In this document: positions 309 through 10,919 of the stretch, in pieces
How the letters are laid out: each line of letters starts with the position of its first letter
Position numbering within the stretch: the stretch's first letter is position 1
Source: Clostridia bacterium
Lineage (GTDB): Bacteria > Bacillota > Clostridia > Oscillospirales > QAMX01
Assembly (NCBI GenBank): GCA_017532825.1
Contig: JAFXIT010000055.1
Span: forward strand, 1-53,530
Length of the DNA stretch: 53,530 nt
Direction: 5' to 3'
Made by a program: the position numbers and the translations under genes
Notes under the pieces: generated by a model
The model's database searches: none
What the model was told of the DNA's origin: nothing
The model's input: the letters and a program-made list of their open reading frames with translations, nothing else

Positions 309-1628
309 TTACAGTCTTTCGAGAAGCGCCTTGCGCATATCCTCGTAGCCGGGCTTGCCGATGAGGGCAAACATATTCTTCTTGTAAGCCTCAACACCGG
401 GCTGGTCGAAGGGATTGACGCCGAGGGTGTAGCCGGAAAGGCCGCAGGCAAACTCAAAGAAGTATACAAGCTCACCAAAGCTGTATGCATCTGCCTTTTC
501 AACGGTAACGGAGAGGTTGGGCACTCCGCCGTCGACGTGGGCAAGGGCGGTGCCCTTGGCGGCCATATCGTTTATCTCGCTGAGAGGTCTGCCGACAAGG
601 AAGTCAAGTCCGTCAAGCTTGTCGCCGTCGGGGACGGTGACGTTGGTGCGGAAGGACTCAAAGCCTACGACGGTCTCAAAGATGTTGCGAAGACCCTGCT
701 GGATATACTGACCCATGGAGTGAAGGTCGGCGGTGAGGTCAACGCTTGCGGGGAAGATACCCTTGAGCTCCTTGCCTTCGCTCTCGCCGTAGAGCTGCTT
801 CCACCATTCGCCCATGTAGCGGAATCTGGGCTCGTAGGCGGCTATGATCTCGGTGGTGTAGCCCTTGCGATAAAGGGCGTTCCTCGCTGCGGCATACTGC
901 CATGCGGGGTTGTCCTCACCGGGGACGTGGAGCTTGCTTGCCATATCGGCTGCACCCTGCATGATGCTGTCGATGTCGATACCTGCAACGGCGATGGGAA
1001 GGAGACCGACGGGGGTGAGTACCGAGAAGCGTCCGCCGACGTTGTCGGGGATAACGAAGCACTCATATCCTGCGGCGTCTGCAAGGGTCTTGAGTGCGCC
1101 TCTGGCGGCGTCGGTAGTGGCAAAGATCCTGTCCTTTGCGGCGGCACCGTAGCGCTGTTCGCAAAGAGCCTTGAAGATTCGGAAGGAGATGGCGGGCTCG
1201 GTGGTAGTTCCCGACTTGGAGATGACATTGACCGAGAAATCCATGCCGGACGTAAGGTCGATTATCTCCTGAGCCTGGTCGGAAGAGATGGAGTTGCCTG
1301 CAAAAACGATCATGGGAGTGCCGTCTTTGCGGAACATATTGTAGTTGGGGGAGGAGATGTACTCGATAGCGGCACGGGCGCCCAGATAGGAGCCGCCGAT
1401 GCCGATAACGATGAGAAGGTCGCTCTGCTCACGGATCTTCTTGGCGGCCGCCTTGACACGCTTGAATTCTTCCTTGTCGTAGTCAAAGGGGAGTCTTACC
1501 CAACCGAGAAAATCGTTGCCACGACCGCTGCCCGAAAGAAGGGTGTCGTGTGCGGCTGCGATCTCGGACATTATTTCCGAGCCGTCAGCAAAGGGAAGTG
1601 CGTTCTTAACAGAAACAGAAAGAGACAT
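309..1628 (-). CDS. pgi: Glucose-6-phosphate isomerase
   Basis: Interconverts glucose-6-phosphate and fructose-6-phosphate in the cytoplasm. The 439-residue protein has the usual length of the short bacterial form. It shows the double SIS fold: [10 protein letters not shown] at about 76-85, the phosphate-binding SKSGTTTEP at about 137-145, and the later segments GRFSVLT and [12 protein letters not shown]. The start is supported by AAGGAG 7 nt upstream of the ATG. It is the last gene of a minus-strand run of five, only 11 bp after the PfkB kinase gene, so it is probably co-transcribed from the promoter near 6009-6032. A Pgi at the end of an operon of sugar kinases and a SIS-HAD protein suggests that the pathway feeds into or draws from hexose phosphate. 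No defect is visible. Confidence 0.96.
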
Positions 1629-1639
1629 GTTTTTTCTCC

Positions 1640-2662
1640 TTACATCAAATAATCTTCGTAGCGCTTAATGACCTGTGCGGGGGTTGCAAAGCCGGTCACG
1701 CCGATCTGCTGGATAGTAATGGAAGCAACGATGTTGCCCATAATGGCGGCATCCTCGGGGGATGCGCCGAGCGAAAGGGCAAGAACTATACCCGACGAAG
1801 CGGAGTCGCCTGCGCCGCAGATGTCGAAGGGTCCAGGGACGTCGACTGCGTCGGCGTGATGTGCACCGGTGCTGTCAAAGACCATTATACCGTGCTTACC
1901 CATGGTTACGTAAACAGGTCTGCCGTTCTTTTCGTAGAGCTTGTGTCCGCACTCCATAACGGTCTTTTGGTCGGGAGTACCCTCAAAGTCGGGCATGACC
2001 GACTTAACGACCTCAAAGTTGTTGCACTTGACCACGACGCCGGAGAAGAGGTGTATAAAGGCACGGGAGTCGGCGTAGATGATAAGCTCGGGGTTTTCCT
2101 TGGACAGCTCGTATATGGCGTTGCGGACGTTGGTGTTTACGACACCGCAGTCGGCCTCGATAAACTGGTCAAGAACCAGCAGAGCCTTGGACTTTGCGAC
2201 GCAGATGCGCATATTCTCGATTATCTTTGCCTCTGCTTCCTTGCTCATGGGCTTGAAGTTCTTGAAGTCAAGACGGTTCAGCTCACTGTAGCTGCCGGGC
2301 TTGCCGCGCATGGGCTTAGTGTAGGTAGAGGTGCAGCGCTCGGTATCGGTGACCATATATTCGGTGTTTGCGCCAATCTTTTTAAGGGCGCTCATAAGCT
2401 CGTAGCCCTCGCCGTCATCACCGACGATACCTACGCAGTATACCTTGGCGGTCAGACCGCGGAGGTTGTTTGTAACGGTGCCTGCGCCGCCGGGATAGAT
2501 TCCCTTGCCGACGACCTGATAGGCGGTAAGACCTGTTTCGAGGGAATCCTCGTCAAGGTCGGGATCGATGTAAAGATACTTGTCCAGGCAGAAGTCGCCA
2601 AGGACGGTGATAGCCGAATCGGGAGCGTGGAGCATCAGCTCTTTGAGGGAGTGGATATTCAT
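1640..2662 (-). CDS. PfkB-family carbohydrate kinase, HldE/RfaE N-domain-like
   Basis: A ribokinase-fold (PfkB) kinase of 340 residues that phosphorylates a sugar or sugar phosphate. Visible marks are the N-terminal strand [10 protein letters not shown], the [10 protein letters not shown] sugar-site loop near residue 58, and the catalytic CGAGD loop (GAGD about 283-286, Asp the base). The stretch SELNRLDF resembles the LLRxDxE segment of HldE/RfaE heptose-7-phosphate kinases rather than fructokinases. Together with the neighbouring GmhA-like SIS domain this hints at a heptulose or heptose phosphate substrate, which is inference. The nucleotidyltransferase half of HldE is absent. The ATG overlaps the stop of the upstream deoxyhypusine-synthase-like gene (ATGA), indicating translational coupling. 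The true substrate is unknown. Confidence 0.85.
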
Positions 2663-3633
2663 ATCTTTGCGTTCCTTTCGAATATTTTATTGGCAAGGTT
2701 TGGAAGCGTCTGATTGTGGGAGCCGCGTACGTAGAAGCTCTTTCCGCCGTCGGCGACGGTGCGGGAAAGGATGGTCTTCCAGGGACGGAAGTAGTAACGG
2801 GGGTCGCTCTTGGGCGGTGTGACGTCGTATCCCTCGTCGGGAATGTCCAAAAGATCAAACACGGCGGTGGTGATATCAAATATCTCCTTGCCCTCTTGCT
2901 TGGCCACGTTTCTGGCCATGGCAAGACACTTGAGGTATACCTCAGGGCCTGCAACTGCCGAACCGAAGTTGAGGAAGACACCGTGATTGAGCTTGGAAAT
3001 GGTGTTTGCGTAGATCAAAAAGTCGGTATAGCTTGCCTCGCCGAGAGCACGTCCGTCGGCGTTGGGATGCTCATGGATTATGTCGTTGCCGATACCGATG
3101 TGTACGGTGGCGGGGACGTGGTTTTTATAGGCGTTTGCAAGAAGACTGCTGTCACGGTAGGGAAGATCGTTCTCCCAGATGTAGCGGCCGATGGCCTCTC
3201 CGGCACCCAGACCGTCCTTGACACCCTCATTGATAATGTCATTGATAAGACCCGATTCGGTCCAAAGTCCGAACTGTCCCTCGCTTATGTACTTTGCGAC
3301 CGATTCGCAGGTGTAGCCCTTGAGAGCAAACTCAAAGTCGTGGATACTGCCTGCGCCGTTGGTGGCAAAATGGGTAACGAGTCCCTGCTCCATCAGCTTT
3401 ATCATAAAGCGTGCGTTGCCGGTGCGTATTACGTGGGCGCCGTACATCATTATGACCTCTGCACCGAGCTTTCTGGCACGGATAACGGCGTCTGCTATCT
3501 CGTCGAGCTTGGGATTTTCAAAGGGGGGAGGGGGAAGTTCGGGGTCCATTACGACGCTGATGTCTATGTCGCTTATGCGCTGGTCAAGGGGGAGTATGTC
3601 CAGCTTGGAACGGTCAAATTTTTCAAAAGGCAT
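2659..3633 (-). CDS. Uncharacterised protein resembling the deoxyhypusine synthase fold
   Basis: A 324-residue soluble protein with no signal peptide or membrane segment. Its middle part (GAHVIRTGNARFMIKLMEQG, then THFATNGAGSIHDFE at about 88-101) resembles the NAD-binding Rossmann-type core of deoxyhypusine synthase, where a TTGAN/GG-HD segment binds the cofactor. I do not see the family's catalytic lysine region, and deoxyhypusine synthesis has no obvious role here, so another NAD-dependent reaction is more likely. GGAGG 7 nt before the ATG supports the start. It sits between the SIS-HAD fusion (17 bp upstream) and the PfkB kinase (4-nt overlap), so it probably acts on the same metabolite. 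This fold assignment by eye is the least certain of the five operon members. Confidence 0.55.
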   Translation of the reverse strand: MPFEKFDRSKLDILPLDQRISDIDISVVMDPELPPPPFENPKLDEIADAVIRARKLGAEVIMMYGAHVIRTGNARFMIKLMEQGLVTHFATNGAGSIHDFEFALKGYTCESVAKYISEGQFGLWTESGLINDIINEGVKDGLGAGEAIGRYIWENDLPYRDSSLLANAYKNHVPATVHIGIGNDIIHEHPNADGRALGEASYTDFLIYANTISKLNHGVFLNFGSAVAGPEVYLKCLAMARNVAKQEGKEIFDITTAVFDLLDIPDEGYDVTPPKSDPRYYFRPWKTILSRTVADGGKSFYVRGSHNQTLPNLANKIFERNAKI

Positions 3634-3650
3634 ATCTATACCTCCGAGAT

Positions 3651-5039
3651 TTATTTTCCGAGAATGAAGTCGATTATGGCTTCTGCGTTTTCAAAGTCGG
3701 GGATGACTGCACCTGCGCCTGCGCCGATGAGTCTGCCACGCTTCCACTCGTCGATACCCATCTTGCGCTTTTCGTCGGTAGCAACGGCGATGGGGTAGCC
3801 GCCGAGCTTGGAGACCAGCTCTATCTCAACGTAACCGTCGCCGAAGGAGAGAAGCTCTGTACCGTCGAGATTGTTTTCGGCGAGAAGTCTCTTGATTACC
3901 AGCTCCTTGGTGCAGGAGGTGGCGTGCTCGTCAAGAGCGCCGTAGATGTTACCGCCGAAGAGCTCGGTAAGTCCAAGCATTTCGGCCTCTTCACGGACTG
4001 CGGGCTGGTCGGTACCGCTGGCGCAGTAGACCTCAATGCCCTCGCGCTTGAGAGCCTTGATAAGCTCGACGGTGCCGCGGACGAGCAGCTCTTCGGGCTT
4101 TATGCTGCCCTCTACGAGACCCTTGCGGCGGTAGTCGATCTTCTCCATGAGACGGCGGAGGTATTCGTTCTTGTAGACCATGGGATCCTCGGGCTTGCCG
4201 CCGCGCTTTTCGATCTCCTCGGCAAGGCGGATGCACTGATAGATGGTCTGCTTACCGGTCAGAAGGTCGACAAAATCGGTAACGCAGGCCTTGATGTCCT
4301 CGGGGGACTCGGTCTTGCCGATAGGAGTAGCGGCGACCTCTTCGCAGAAGTAGGGGATCATTATCTGCTGCCAGCCCTCACGGATAAGGCTCATGGTGCC
4401 GTCAAAATCAAACAGAGCAAACTTGAACTTTCTGCCGGGAACGGGCGGGAAGACCACCTCAAGACCCCACATATCCTCCAGGGTCTTGTGTATAACGGTT
4501 GCGAGGGTGTGCTCGGCGATCATATGGATATCCTCGATCTGCTCCATGCAATCAGTAGGAGCAAGGAGGTACTTGTCGCACAGGGGGAGGGTCTTACCGC
4601 CGTCACGGCCAAGGAAGCCGATGACGGTCATGCCGATGGAACGGGCGTACTCGGCGGCGGCGACGATGTTGGCGGAGTTACCGCTTCCGGTGTAGACGCA
4701 AAGGACGTCGCCCTTCTTTGCAAGGGTCTGAAGCTCGATCTTGTAGATATCCTCATAGCAGAAATCGTTTGCAAGGCAGGTCACGACTGCAGAGGAGTCG
4801 GAAAGGCAGATAGCCTTGAAGCCGGTGCGGTTGTGTGCACGGCAGCCCTTCATAAGGTCGTTGACCATGTGAGAGGCGGTCGCCGAGCTGCCGCCGTTAC
4901 CTGCGGTAAAAACGGTAGCACCGCGGGTCTTGGCGTCGATAAGTATGCTTGCTATGTCCGAAAGAGCCTGTTCGTCGGTACGGGAGAGTATGTCCGAGAC
5001 GGTGTTAAAGTAGTTTCTGATGTCCTTGGTAAGATCCAT
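3651..5039 (-). CDS. GmhA-like SIS isomerase fused to a HAD hydrolase
   Basis: A two-domain protein of 462 residues. Residues 1-190 form a SIS domain of the GmhA/DiaA type: FTAGNGGSSATASHMVNDL at 44-62, then GSGNSANIVAAAEYA and the C-terminal QIEDIHMIAEH. GmhA isomerises sedoheptulose-7-phosphate. Residues 205-462 form a HAD phosphatase: FDFDGT (motif I, nucleophile about D211), CASGT (motif II, 339-343) and FGDGYVEIE (motif IV, about D401), with a helical cap of roughly 110 residues. The cap and size differ from GmhB, so this is not simply a GmhA-GmhB fusion. By eye, the GmhA catalytic glutamate position reads as Asp. AGGAG 9 nt upstream supports the start. An isomerase-phosphatase fusion beside two sugar kinases implies consecutive steps on one sugar phosphate; the substrate is unknown. 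Confidence 0.85.
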   Translation of the reverse strand: MDLTKDIRNYFNTVSDILSRTDEQALSDIASILIDAKTRGATVFTAGNGGSSATASHMVNDLMKGCRAHNRTGFKAICLSDSSAVVTCLANDFCYEDIYKIELQTLAKKGDVLCVYTGSGNSANIVAAAEYARSIGMTVIGFLGRDGGKTLPLCDKYLLAPTDCMEQIEDIHMIAEHTLATVIHKTLEDMWGLEVVFPPVPGRKFKFALFDFDGTMSLIREGWQQIMIPYFCEEVAATPIGKTESPEDIKACVTDFVDLLTGKQTIYQCIRLAEEIEKRGGKPEDPMVYKNEYLRRLMEKIDYRRKGLVEGSIKPEELLVRGTVELIKALKREGIEVYCASGTDQPAVREEAEMLGLTELFGGNIYGALDEHATSCTKELVIKRLLAENNLDGTELLSFGDGYVEIELVSKLGGYPIAVATDEKRKMGIDEWKRGRLIGAGAGAVIPDFENAEAIIDFILGK

Positions 5040-5055
5040 TTTGCAGTCGCTCCTT

Positions 5056-5967
5056 TTATTTGTTGTTTGAATCGTTTGCTTTTTTTATTGCAAGGGTAGC
5101 AGCTCCGAGCAGTGCGGCGTTGTAGCCGAGTCCGGTCTTTACGACCCTTAATTCCTTGTTTGCGTTTTTAAACATATAGAGCTCCAGAGCGCCCTCTATC
5201 GACGGCTGAAGAAGCTCAAAGTCGTTGGAAAGTCCGCCGCCGAAAACGGCAAGCCCGGGGTTTAAGACGTTGACCGCCGAGGCTAACGCCTTTCCTATGA
5301 GGAAGCCGGCACGCTTGTAGACCTCAACTGCGGTGGTGTCACCGTCGTTTGCAAGTTCGGCTATTGCCTTTGCGGTAAGACGCCTTCCGGTGCGAAGCTC
5401 GTATTCCTCGCTTATTGCCGGACCTGCGGCCTCTGCCTCAAGACAGCCGTGCATTCCGCAGCCGCACCTTCTGCCGTCCTCGTCGCAGACGTTTACGTGT
5501 CCTATCTCTCCTGCGTTGCCCGAGGCTCCTCGGTAGAGCGCTCCGTTTATAAAGACCGCACCGCCGATGCCGTTGGAAAGGGTGATCCATACGTAATCGT
5601 CAACGTCCTTGCAGACCCCAAACTGCCTCTCGGCAAGCGCACAGGCGTTGACGTCGTTCTCTATGCCGACGGGAAGTCCGGTGAGCGAGGAAAGGAATGA
5701 GGAGATATCAAGATTTTCAATGCCCGAAAAGGGGGCGTATACCCACATTCCGCTGTCGGGATCGGCAAGACCCGGAACGGTAACTCCGACGGCGGAGCAT
5801 TGGGCGTAGGGAAGGGAGGTAACGGCGGTTTTTATGGTGTCCCGAAGGAAGTCGGCATCGTATCCCGGAGCTAATTCGGTGCGGACAGAGTCCATGACCT
5901 CACCGTTTTCCGCAACGATTCCGGCCATAAGCTTTGAGCCGCCGATGTCGATAGCGAGAAGCTTCAT
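5056..5967 (-). CDS. ROK-family sugar kinase
   Basis: First gene of the minus-strand operon, 303 residues. It has the ROK signature: N-terminal phosphate loop DIGGSKLMAG (7-16), catalytic ENDVNA (D105), and the zinc site with H157 followed by CGCGMHGCLE (168-177). ROK kinases phosphorylate glucose, fructose, N-acetylmannosamine or allose; repressor members carry an N-terminal helix-turn-helix, which is absent here, so this is an enzyme. The window carries a second ROK kinase (16989-17936) that is closer to ordinary glucokinase, which makes a specialised substrate more likely for this copy. GAGGT precedes the ATG. The next gene follows after 16 bp. Confidence 0.88.
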   Translation of the reverse strand: MKLLAIDIGGSKLMAGIVAENGEVMDSVRTELAPGYDADFLRDTIKTAVTSLPYAQCSAVGVTVPGLADPDSGMWVYAPFSGIENLDISSFLSSLTGLPVGIENDVNACALAERQFGVCKDVDDYVWITLSNGIGGAVFINGALYRGASGNAGEIGHVNVCDEDGRRCGCGMHGCLEAEAAGPAISEEYELRTGRRLTAKAIAELANDGDTTAVEVYKRAGFLIGKALASAVNVLNPGLAVFGGGLSNDFELLQPSIEGALELYMFKNANKELRVVKTGLGYNAALLGAATLAIKKANDSNNK

Positions 5968-6085: not shown

Positions 6086-6114
6086 TTGCAAAATGACAGC
6101 CGAATAGGTATAAT
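6086..6114 (+). promoter_or_regulatory. Promoter of the isomerase-isomerase-lacZ operon
   Basis: TTGCAA (6086-6091) and TATAAT (6109-6114) are separated by 17 nt. It is arranged divergently from the ROK operon promoter, with about 50 bp between the two -35 boxes. A leader of about 85 nt follows, containing a short hairpin (CTTCGG with CCGAAG) before the AGGAGG of the first gene. Confidence 0.75.
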
Positions 6115-6207
6115 TATATAGGACACTTCGGCAGTGTAAATGAAGCTGTACCGAAGAGAAAAATTTTCCGATGAACTGTCGGAGGATAAGATATCAGGAG
6201 GATAAAA

Positions 6208-7041
6208 ATGGAAAAGTTAAAGGTAGGTATTCAGCTCTATACTCTTCGTGATCAGACCGAGAAGGACCTTGTCGGTACCCTTCAGACCGTAAAGAAGATC
6301 GGCTACGACTACGTAGAGTACGCTGGTTATTTCGGTTATTCTGCTGCAGACCTCAAGAAGCTTACCGAGGATTGCGACCTTATCGGTATCTCCACCCACT
6401 ACGGACTTGATAACTTCAAGAACCCCGATACCTTTGATGCAAACGTTGCTTATCAGAAGGAACTGGGCGTAAAGTACGTTGCCATTCCCTGGATGGACAA
6501 GATGGAAGGTCTCGCCGGCGGCGAAGAGGCCCTTGCAATGACTGCCGAGCTTATGACCAAGACCGCCATTGCCCTTAAGAAAAACGGTATGCAGCTTCTT
6601 TACCACAACCACGACTTCGAGTTTGAGCCGGTCGGGGATAAGCTTCCCATCGACGCCCTCTATGAAGCCGTTCCCGAGCTCATGCCCGAGTTTGATACCT
6701 GCTGGGTCAAGTATGCAGGCTATGATCCCGTCGAATACATAAACAAGTACTCCGGCCGTACCCCCGTTATCCACCTCAAGGATTTCGTAGGTAAGAAGGC
6801 TGCTACCCAGGTATACGCCCTTGTCGATAAGGACGGCAACCCCGTCGGCGGCGACAATTCCGACGTTTCTGCCTTTGCCTTCCGCTCCGTCGGCAGCGGC
6901 ATCCAGAACTTCCCCGCCATCATCCGTGCCGGTATTGCAAGCGGCGCAGAGGCCATTATAGTTGAGCAGGACGACTGCTACGGCGACTCCTTCGGCGCTG
7001 CCGAGGCAAGCCGTGCCTATCTCAAGAGCATAGGCTTCTAA
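6208..7041 (+). CDS. Sugar phosphate isomerase/epimerase, TIM barrel (first of two)
   Basis: A 277-residue AP-endonuclease-2-like TIM barrel protein of the IolE/hydroxypyruvate-isomerase/tagatose-epimerase superfamily. The metal-site segments typical of the family are visible: YHNHDFEFE at about 133-141, HLKDF about 191-195 and VEQDD near 252-256. Such enzymes isomerise or epimerise free or phosphorylated sugars, and some act on 3-keto-sugars. AGGAGG lies 8 nt before the ATG. The gene is first in a plus-strand operon with a second TIM barrel (11 bp later) and lacZ (15 bp after that), suggesting that it processes a sugar released by the galactosidase. The substrate is not determined by the sequence. 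Confidence 0.85.
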   Translation: MEKLKVGIQLYTLRDQTEKDLVGTLQTVKKIGYDYVEYAGYFGYSAADLKKLTEDCDLIGISTHYGLDNFKNPDTFDANVAYQKELGVKYVAIPWMDKMEGLAGGEEALAMTAELMTKTAIALKKNGMQLLYHNHDFEFEPVGDKLPIDALYEAVPELMPEFDTCWVKYAGYDPVEYINKYSGRTPVIHLKDFVGKKAATQVYALVDKDGNPVGGDNSDVSAFAFRSVGSGIQNFPAIIRAGIASGAEAIIVEQDDCYGDSFGAAEASRAYLKSIGF

Positions 7042-7052
7042 AGGAGAGCAAA

Positions 7053-7829
7053 ATGAGCTACTTCAAAGTAGGCGTAATGCTTGATTCACTTCGCAAGCCC
7101 ACCTTTGAAGAGAATGCAAGCTTTGCAGCCGAGATCGGCGCAGACGGCTTTCAGATGTACTACAACGGAGTAAAAGTTTTAACTGCTGAGCAGATAGCTG
7201 CTCAGCAGGCTCATCTTGAAAAATGTAAGCTTACCGCCGCCGCTATATGCGGCGATATCGGCGGATGGGTCGATAAGTCCAAGGTTGAGGAGCGTCTGGA
7301 GCTTACCCGTATAATAATGGACTACACCCGTGACCTTGGAGCAAAGGTCGTAACAAGCCATATAGGCCGCATCCCCGAGGATGTCAACGATCCTATGTAT
7401 CAGCATCTGCTTGGAATCATGGAAAAGGTCGGCAGGCTTGCGCGTGAGCGTGGCCTTACCTACGCTATCGAGACGGGACCCGAGACCACTGCGGTCCTCA
7501 GAGAATTCCTTGACAGACTTGACGGGGGAGTAGGTGTCAACTTTGACCCTGCAAACCTCGTTATGGCCGGTTACTCCAAAAACGGAGCCGACAGCGTTGC
7601 GGTCGTAGCACCCTACATCGTACATACTCACGCCAAGGACGGCACACCCGCAGAGCATGAAACGCCGCTCGGAGAGGGCGGAGTCGATTTCCATGCCTGG
7701 CTTACCGAGCTTAAGCGCAACGGCTATAAGGGATTTTTGACCATTGAGCGTGAGTGCGGTGATGACCCTGCGGCAGATTGCAAGAACGCCATGGCATTTT
7801 TGCGCAAGGTAGATGCCGAGATCGAATAA
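7053..7829 (+). CDS. Sugar phosphate isomerase/epimerase, TIM barrel (second of two)
   Basis: A 258-residue protein of the same barrel superfamily as its upstream neighbour but clearly diverged from it, so the pair is not a recent duplication. Metal-site candidates are AIETGPE (E near 144), NFDPAN (about 172-177), HTHAKD (about 196-201) and LTIERECG (about 238-245). AAGGAG precedes the ATG by 6-7 nt. Two different barrel epimerases before a beta-galactosidase suggest sequential rearrangements of one sugar, or a heteromeric enzyme. Related barrel proteins act with Gfo/Idh oxidoreductases in 3-keto-glycoside chemistry, and such an oxidoreductase gene lies just downstream on the other strand. 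Confidence 0.83.
   Translation: MSYFKVGVMLDSLRKPTFEENASFAAEIGADGFQMYYNGVKVLTAEQIAAQQAHLEKCKLTAAAICGDIGGWVDKSKVEERLELTRIIMDYTRDLGAKVVTSHIGRIPEDVNDPMYQHLLGIMEKVGRLARERGLTYAIETGPETTAVLREFLDRLDGGVGVNFDPANLVMAGYSKNGADSVAVVAPYIVHTHAKDGTPAEHETPLGEGGVDFHAWLTELKRNGYKGFLTIERECGDDPAADCKNAMAFLRKVDAEIE

Positions 7830-10919
<3,090 letters not shown>

Follow-up and report, generated by a model that had tools for sequence, protein, structure and literature searches.

What does an operon make that combines two sugar kinases and a fused isomerase-phosphatase-like protein with a protein resembling deoxyhypusine synthase (DHS)? The question is raised by the contig JAFXIT010000055.1 of a Clostridia bacterium (assembly GCA_017532825.1), of which positions 1 to 53,530 were analysed; this whole stretch of 53,530 nucleotides is called the window. 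With a probability of roughly 55% the operon specifies a heptose-1-phosphate-type route of sugar-phosphate metabolism, composed of two half-modules and containing a nicotinamide adenine dinucleotide (NAD)-using DHS-fold enzyme beside the isomerase. A preliminary description, made from the sequence alone, had proposed a heptose route for four packed minus-strand genes joined to pgi, and the coordinates, the gaps and the 4-nt overlap were all reproduced. The four genes and the two domains of the fusion are:

5056..5967, minus strand: ROK-family sugar kinase, 303 amino acids (PF00480, 231.6 bits)
3651-5039, minus strand: SIS-HAD fusion gene (SIS_2 PF13580 and HAD PF00702)
4450..5039, minus strand: SIS (GmhA-like) domain of the SIS-HAD fusion (PF13580; TIGR00441 115.3 bits)
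3651..4445, minus strand: HAD phosphatase/phosphomutase-like domain of the SIS-HAD fusion (PF00702; motifs DFDGT and SFGDGYVE)
2659..3633, minus strand: DHS-fold protein, GSU2086 family type I, 324 amino acids (NF052581, 383.4 bits)
1640..2662, minus strand: PfkB-family kinase (PF00294; GAGD catalytic motif)

The preliminary description had made the idea of a single pathway depend on whether these genes co-occur in other genomes. In 245 genomes of the class, counting DHS-fold matches above the family cut-off and HAD matches with E-values below 1e-40 as strong, the 19 genomes with a full-length DHS-fold gene are the same 19 that encode a strong HAD (12 genera, 9 families), and a wide score gap separates these 19 HAD matches from all other HADs. 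The random-draw probability of this identity is 1e-28, or 3e-18 if the genomes are collapsed to 12 of 158 genera, values that are not corrected for kinship. A truncated DHS-fold copy in the 73%-complete genome G188 comes without HAD. Among 40 relatives (strong HAD defined by E-values below 1e-60) strong HAD and strong DHS-fold genes are found in an identical set of 13 genomes, if the contig-truncated DHS-fold copy of G163 is counted, the sole exception being one 72%-complete genome with a fragment of a DHS-fold gene. In G149, one of the 13, HAD and DHS-fold are located on separate large contigs. The 80 named homologous loci, which come from at least seven phyla, have a PfkB gene within 5 kb on the same strand in 69 cases, a HAD in 67, and a SIS in 53, and many of those without a partner are cut by contig ends. 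The neighbourhoods are present in Bacillota, Planctomycetota, Spirochaetota, Synergistota, Armatimonadota, Bacteroidota, and Zipacnadia, and further ones on Chloroflexota and Desulfobacterota plasmids; sometimes they include GmhB and an HldE-like nucleotidyltransferase-kinase. The gene arrangement is not due to chance, and the idea of a single pathway withstands this check. It could be argued that the genes only hitch-hike without sharing a pathway, given that operons can move jointly by horizontal transfer and that the distribution is patchy. However, the co-occurrence is perfect even in genomes whose two halves are split between contigs, and a second type of DHS-fold gene substitutes for the first, which makes such a cluster very improbable.

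This substitution becomes apparent because the GSU2086 family splits into type I, to which the window protein belongs, and type II. The window genome itself encodes a type II paralogue (43% identical, at G000:C65), which has a canonical GmhA-like gene as its neighbour. Two relatives, G149 and G162, have kept SIS-HAD and PfkB, with a SIS domain that has no GNGGS phosphate loop, and have lost the type I DHS-fold gene. Three others, G154, G161 and G166, encode HAD and PfkB alone. All five have a type II DHS-fold gene and a canonical GmhA elsewhere in the genome. These genomes are drafts and single absences need care, but the contigs of G149 are long. The four functions act as two halves, one of DHS-fold protein and SIS and the other of PfkB and HAD, and in the five relatives a pair of type II DHS-fold protein and canonical GmhA can apparently take the place of the first half. 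The simplest reading of this pattern of loss and retention is that DHS-fold protein and SIS make an intermediate, which PfkB and HAD use. In the loci L155 (7410-8738) and L156 (6735-8069) the SIS half has decayed (GNGGS is changed to AGSAHT/AGSERT and the metal ligands are lost) while the HAD is intact; by its residues, this half is a putative pseudoenzyme that arose after the DHS-fold gene had been lost. Other combinations were also found. G182 has type II DHS-fold, HAD, a ROK-like gene, and PfkB in one cluster. Types I and II stand side by side in L080 (124-5067), where a run of HAD, DHS-fold and PfkB continues with another HAD and a type II-like DHS-fold gene. In L020 (8500-14117) the genes for a type II DHS-fold protein and a canonical GmhA share an overlap of 4 nt, and a co-directional downstream gene encodes an 822-amino-acid protein resembling, by eye, a GH38 alpha-mannosidase.

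The DHS-fold protein is a member of the NCBIfam family NF052581 ("GSU2086 family"; 383.4 bits, curated cut-off 250). It has no Pfam match above cut-off including PF01916, the family of deoxyhypusine and homospermidine synthases, which does not match anywhere in the window genome. The ornithine cyclodeaminase model TIGR00300 gives 18.1 bits over 64 residues (cut-off 410.8). A direct search of the PDB with the sequence resulted in zero matches and a search with the profile only in weak matches to ArgZ/AgrE over about 70 residues, whereas hhalign of the profile against TIGR00300 proteins reaches a probability of 95% over about 100 residues with the HDxE motif in common. The AlphaFold2 model, built from an alignment of 50 diverse sequences, has a predicted local distance difference test (pLDDT) score of 93. 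Foldseek finds its closest solved folds in 3c2q, an archaeal LOR/SDH protein, in the ornithine-cyclodeaminase part of AgrE/ArgZ, and in deoxyhypusine synthases (7cmc: E-value 6e-7, TM-score about 0.5). The resemblance to DHS, first noticed by reading the sequence, is thus borne out at the level of the predicted fold. Going by this model, the protein belongs to the same superfamily as DHS, but to a separate family. It shares the overall fold and the Rossmann NAD-type domain with deoxyhypusine and homospermidine synthases and by analogy likely binds NAD, but DHS His288 has no evident counterpart, the counterpart of Lys329 is uncertain, and its partners are sugar enzymes. Archaeal and cyanobacterial ornithine cyclodeaminases (TIGR00300, ArgZ/AgrE C-terminal domain) are nearest by profile and by Foldseek, but the similarity covers about 100 residues, their N-terminal domains are lacking in the window protein, and the gene context is different. 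A match to a well-known unrelated enzyme, which would have spoken against a common pathway, did not appear; NF052581 is a family without assigned function, in agreement with the earlier remark that this protein is part of no characterised pathway. The same description regarded it as "added" to the operon, which does not hold, since heptose-type genes of many phyla have it as a conserved partner that comes in two subtypes.

The 50-sequence alignment contains 38 invariant columns that are clustered in motif-like stretches and suggest a catalytic protein. K235 as well as D99 and E101 of the HDxE motif are invariant, and K286 is nearly so. In an hhalign comparison to DHS the RPWK motif falls on VSWG, and K286 is placed one column before DHS Lys329 (SWGK). 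This alignment is non-significant and one column off, and K286 is therefore not equated with K329. The strict pairing with SIS or GmhA, and the fact that G149 and G162 have lost the gene and a working SIS domain together, would also be expected of a non-enzymatic partner, a scaffold or regulator of the isomerase, but the invariant, motif-clustered columns over so diverse a set argue for catalysis, and we regard a purely structural role as quite improbable. Tandem type I-like DHS-fold genes are present in L092 (6996-8963) and L095 (7015-8960), and in the second copy of L092 RPWR replaces RPWK and the loop is shortened. By analogy, the two copies may perhaps form a heteromeric pair resembling trypanosome DHS.

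The SIS domain is nearest to GmhA, as described before, but its zinc and catalytic residues are changed. In GmhA, zinc is bound by His, Glu, His, and a Gln from the side of the neighbouring subunit (PMC5387315). Aligned to solved GmhA, the window domain has the signature T54-H57-D61-E169-H177 in place of D-H-E-Q-H, and the zinc-site changes Glu to Asp and Gln to Glu are found in all 55 type I copies in which both positions are aligned. The GmhA linked to type II has the canonical D-H-E-Q-H in both copies of the signature set. In Burkholderia pseudomallei GmhA the Q175E mutant is inactive and D61A retains 6% activity (PMC5705639). The position of Asp61, a channel residue, is a Thr in 48 type I SIS copies. 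Judged from these residues, the type I metal site seems to be kept but re-tuned, and the domain performs either the same isomerisation by different means or acts on another substrate. That the type II pair can replace type I favours an equivalent reaction, and the changed metal site makes the GmhA annotation of type I SIS proteins unsafe. Could the DHS-fold protein instead carry out amine chemistry, the product being an amino sugar or an amine-conjugated sugar phosphate, with the remodelled SIS perhaps aminating or deaminating as other SIS proteins do? DHS, homospermidine synthase, and ornithine cyclodeaminase act on amines via NAD and imines (PMC10042821, PMC10981699), and GlmS and NagB-II belong to the SIS family. 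However, the conserved set lacks an aminotransferase, a glutaminase and any source of amines, and with a canonical GmhA as type II partner the isomerisation of sedoheptulose-7-phosphate is expected, so that amine chemistry appears unlikely.

The fusion of isomerase and phosphatase had been recognised correctly as far as the SIS_2/HAD fusion is concerned, but the HAD is outside the GmhB group. The fusion protein is not matched by the GmhB models TIGR00213/NF006506, and the HAD, which is a stand-alone gene in many relatives, belongs to the C1-cap group of beta-phosphoglucomutase and AlnB. The nearest folds to its AlphaFold2 model (pLDDT 92.5; mean column identity of the alignment 49%) are AlnB, the alnumycin P phosphatase, and beta-phosphoglucomutase, although at 15-22% identity. 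The closest relative of the PfkB kinase is the HldE domain that phosphorylates heptose-7-phosphate. The best NCBIfam equivalog match is the HldE kinase model TIGR02198, and the heptose 7-phosphate kinase 4e84 aligns with it along its full length. The ROK protein is covered by PF00480 from residue 4 to 295 of 303, has no helix-turn-helix, and contains the zinc motif CGCGMHGC and the GEIGH motif as in ROK sugar kinases; the glucokinase-type subfamily model scored below its cut-off. A same-strand ROK gene within 5 kb is present at only 11 of the 80 loci, and the kinase is an optional component. After PfkB, the loci L079, L086, and L089 (also L070 and L073) have a co-directional nitrilase-family (carbon-nitrogen hydrolase) cluster with a GHL10-like gene.

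The link to heptose is provided by relatives of the set. In the Lachnospiraceae loci L064/L067/L077 the DHS-fold gene is found together with SIS, GmhB, and a nucleotidyltransferase-PfkB fusion, in which the HldE domains are in reverse order. The window-type HAD is absent exactly in these loci, where GmhB is present, which suggests that the HAD does the job of GmhB. On a Solidesulfovibrio plasmid, genes for DHS-fold protein, SIS, and a nucleotidyltransferase-PfkB fusion adjoin nonulosonate genes. Geobacter has the gene order hldE (GSU2085)-GSU2086-gmhA (GSU2087), with the same family above cut-off and the same partners (kinase and SIS) as the window, whose member is of type I. Transposon insertions in Geobacter sulfurreducens lead to one and the same defect, a loss of fitness on electrodes, for hldE (-3.1), GSU2086 (-3.2), and gmhA (-3.7) (PMC5585712). 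CTP_transf-like/NTP_transferase motifs near the core are restricted to L064, L066, L067, and L077 among the named loci and are also found in L103. The missing nucleotidyltransferase of the preliminary description is accordingly a matter of lineage: it is absent here, but fused to PfkB in Lachnospiraceae and Solidesulfovibrio. Compared to the ADP-/GDP-heptose pathway (GmhA, HldA/HldE, GmhB, HldC/HddC), the window operon likewise unites a SIS isomerase, an RfaE-domain-I-like PfkB, and a HAD phosphatase, and some relatives retain GmhB and the fused nucleotidyltransferase. The window operon differs by the extra DHS-fold protein, the ROK kinase, the altered SIS zinc site, the other HAD subfamily, and, in the genome, the absence of an HldE-type nucleotidyltransferase and of a heptosyltransferase.

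In the known heptose route, the HldE kinase and GmhB do the equivalent of the PfkB and HAD half. In the proposed pathway, DHS-fold protein and SIS would turn a ketose phosphate, for example sedoheptulose-7-phosphate, into an aldose-(7-)phosphate or change the stereochemistry of the latter. PfkB would then put on the anomeric phosphate and the HAD take off the terminal one to yield an aldose-1-phosphate, while the ROK kinase would probably supply phosphorylated free sugar. In DHS, spermidine is oxidised by NAD, the fragment stays bound to Lys329 as an imine, and the hydride is then given back (PMC10042821); a like mechanism has been proposed for its bacterial relative CdmS (PMC10981699). The DHS-fold protein would most likely work in the manner of its superfamily: a tightly bound NAD would accept a hydride from a sugar-phosphate alcohol, the oxidised intermediate would react further, possibly while attached to a lysine, and the hydride would go back. 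Such a loan would invert a stereocentre or rearrange a group, and the simplest case would be an epimerisation next to the isomerase step. By analogy an epimerase is our single best guess, although a tentative one.

Several observations weigh against a heptose-1-phosphate-type pathway. The SIS and PfkB parts score below the cut-offs of their heptose models (115.3 against 209 bits for TIGR00441 and 131.6 against 345 for TIGR02198), so that the earlier labels "GmhA-like" and "HldE-like" hold for the nearest relatives and the heptose route holds as a conserved pathway with heptose-like parts, but not as the canonical one. As Q175E kills GmhA, the type I SIS, which has this very exchange, may not isomerise sedoheptulose-7-phosphate. 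Whole-protein TM-scores of the DHS-fold model to DHS reach no more than about 0.5. The Geobacter fitness values may in part reflect polarity of the insertions, which lie in a single operon. In the 91%-complete window genome neither the HldE-type nucleotidyltransferase TIGR02199 nor the heptosyltransferase PF01075 is found, and there is therefore no known sink for the product; one NTP_transferase-containing protein (L170), which might take the place of the nucleotidyltransferase, is unlinked to the operon, beside a fructokinase-like gene. Finally, about 12 clostridial loci look catabolic, with a Gfo/Idh dehydrogenase and an IolE-like protein beside an ABC importer of the allose/xylose/ribose type. 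In L047, L050, L054, L057, L058, and L063 the four genes lead directly into genes for a substrate-binding protein and an AlsA/XylG/RbsA-like ATPase, where the contig allows also an RbsC-like permease, and in several Gfo/Idh and IolE-like genes. These neighbours hint at a sugar or cyclitol substrate in L058, L063, L047, and others. ABC, Gfo/Idh, and DeoC genes are also present on the Chloroflexota plasmid, and in the window the operon has two AP_endonuc_2 genes and LacZ as divergent neighbours. Accordingly, a rare sugar or cyclitol could be imported, phosphorylated by ROK, isomerised by SIS, and phosphorylated by PfkB to a bisphosphate for aldolase cleavage, with the DHS-fold protein epimerising an intermediate. 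But the importer is found in a minority of the 80 loci, and L070, L073, and L074 are located beside housekeeping genes without a transporter. The importer-linked loci were for this reason rejected as proof of catabolism. The set does not contain an aldolase, the HAD is a constant member, and the nucleotidyltransferase-fused and GmhB-bearing versions as well as the lipopolysaccharide/sugar biosynthesis context in Geobacter are biosynthetic. A catabolic role is possible in some lineages, but as the general explanation it seems doubtful.

If the heptose-type pathway is correct, a superfamily whose characterised members mentioned above act on amines would extend to sugar phosphates. We give about even odds to the GSU2086 family being the first branch of the DHS/ornithine cyclodeaminase superfamily on sugar phosphates, joining an NAD hydride shuttle to a heptose-type isomerase for an unrecognised heptose or amino-heptose phosphate in many phyla. 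There is a fair chance that the enzyme performs new chemistry. The family name in NCBIfam and heptose-type sugar-phosphate pathways are already known. In the open literature, which leaves most subscription papers outside, one paper alone names GSU2086, none connects deoxyhypusine synthase with heptose or phosphoheptose isomerase, and none treats a "nickel-pincer ornithine cyclodeaminase" as a mechanistic lead. A function-less family thus gains a testable place next to the isomerase of a heptose-type pathway in many phyla including gut clostridia. Heptose phosphates of Gram-negatives act as immune agonists (PMC6662969, PMC10221265), which would make a Gram-positive gut route of interest, although that product is hypothetical here.

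The operon is flanked by the following features:

309..1628, minus strand: pgi, glucose-6-phosphate isomerase (PF00342; NF010697 626.5 bits)
6113..6140, minus strand: promoter-like site upstream of the operon (consensus scan, 11/12 match)
6208..7829, plus strand: two AP_endonuc_2 (sugar isomerase/epimerase-like) genes, divergent from the operon (PF01261)

The junctions measure 16 nt (ROK/SIS-HAD), 17 nt (SIS-HAD/DHS-fold), a 4-nt overlap (DHS-fold/PfkB), and 11 nt (PfkB/pgi), and RBS-like (ribosome-binding-site-like) sequences precede each of the four genes downstream of ROK. The postulated single promoter would correspond to one strong promoter-like site upstream on the minus strand (TTTACA-16-TATAAT, 6140-6113), opposed by a divergent site at 6086-6114. 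The scan yields about as many sites in the window as in shuffled sequence, so that the site fits one transcript but does not prove it. Among the loci examined pgi adjoins the set only in the window genome, although the contigs of several close relatives stop near that point; the homologous loci scanned contain no PGI gene and do not support it as a conserved member of the module. It is probably a local neighbour and not part of the pathway. The divergent plus-strand genes at 6208-10919 comprise the two AP_endonuc_2 genes and a LacZ-like gene. One or both AP_endonuc_2 genes and the LacZ-like gene also adjoin SIS-HAD/PfkB in L155, L156, and L165, and this neighbourhood is conserved within the family of the window genome. 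A phage origin found no match. Long antisense open reading frames on the plus strand (537-1652, 1856-2713, 2716-3798, and 3924-5099) oppose pgi, PfkB, DHS-fold, and SIS-HAD, and are probably an effect of codon bias and not genes.

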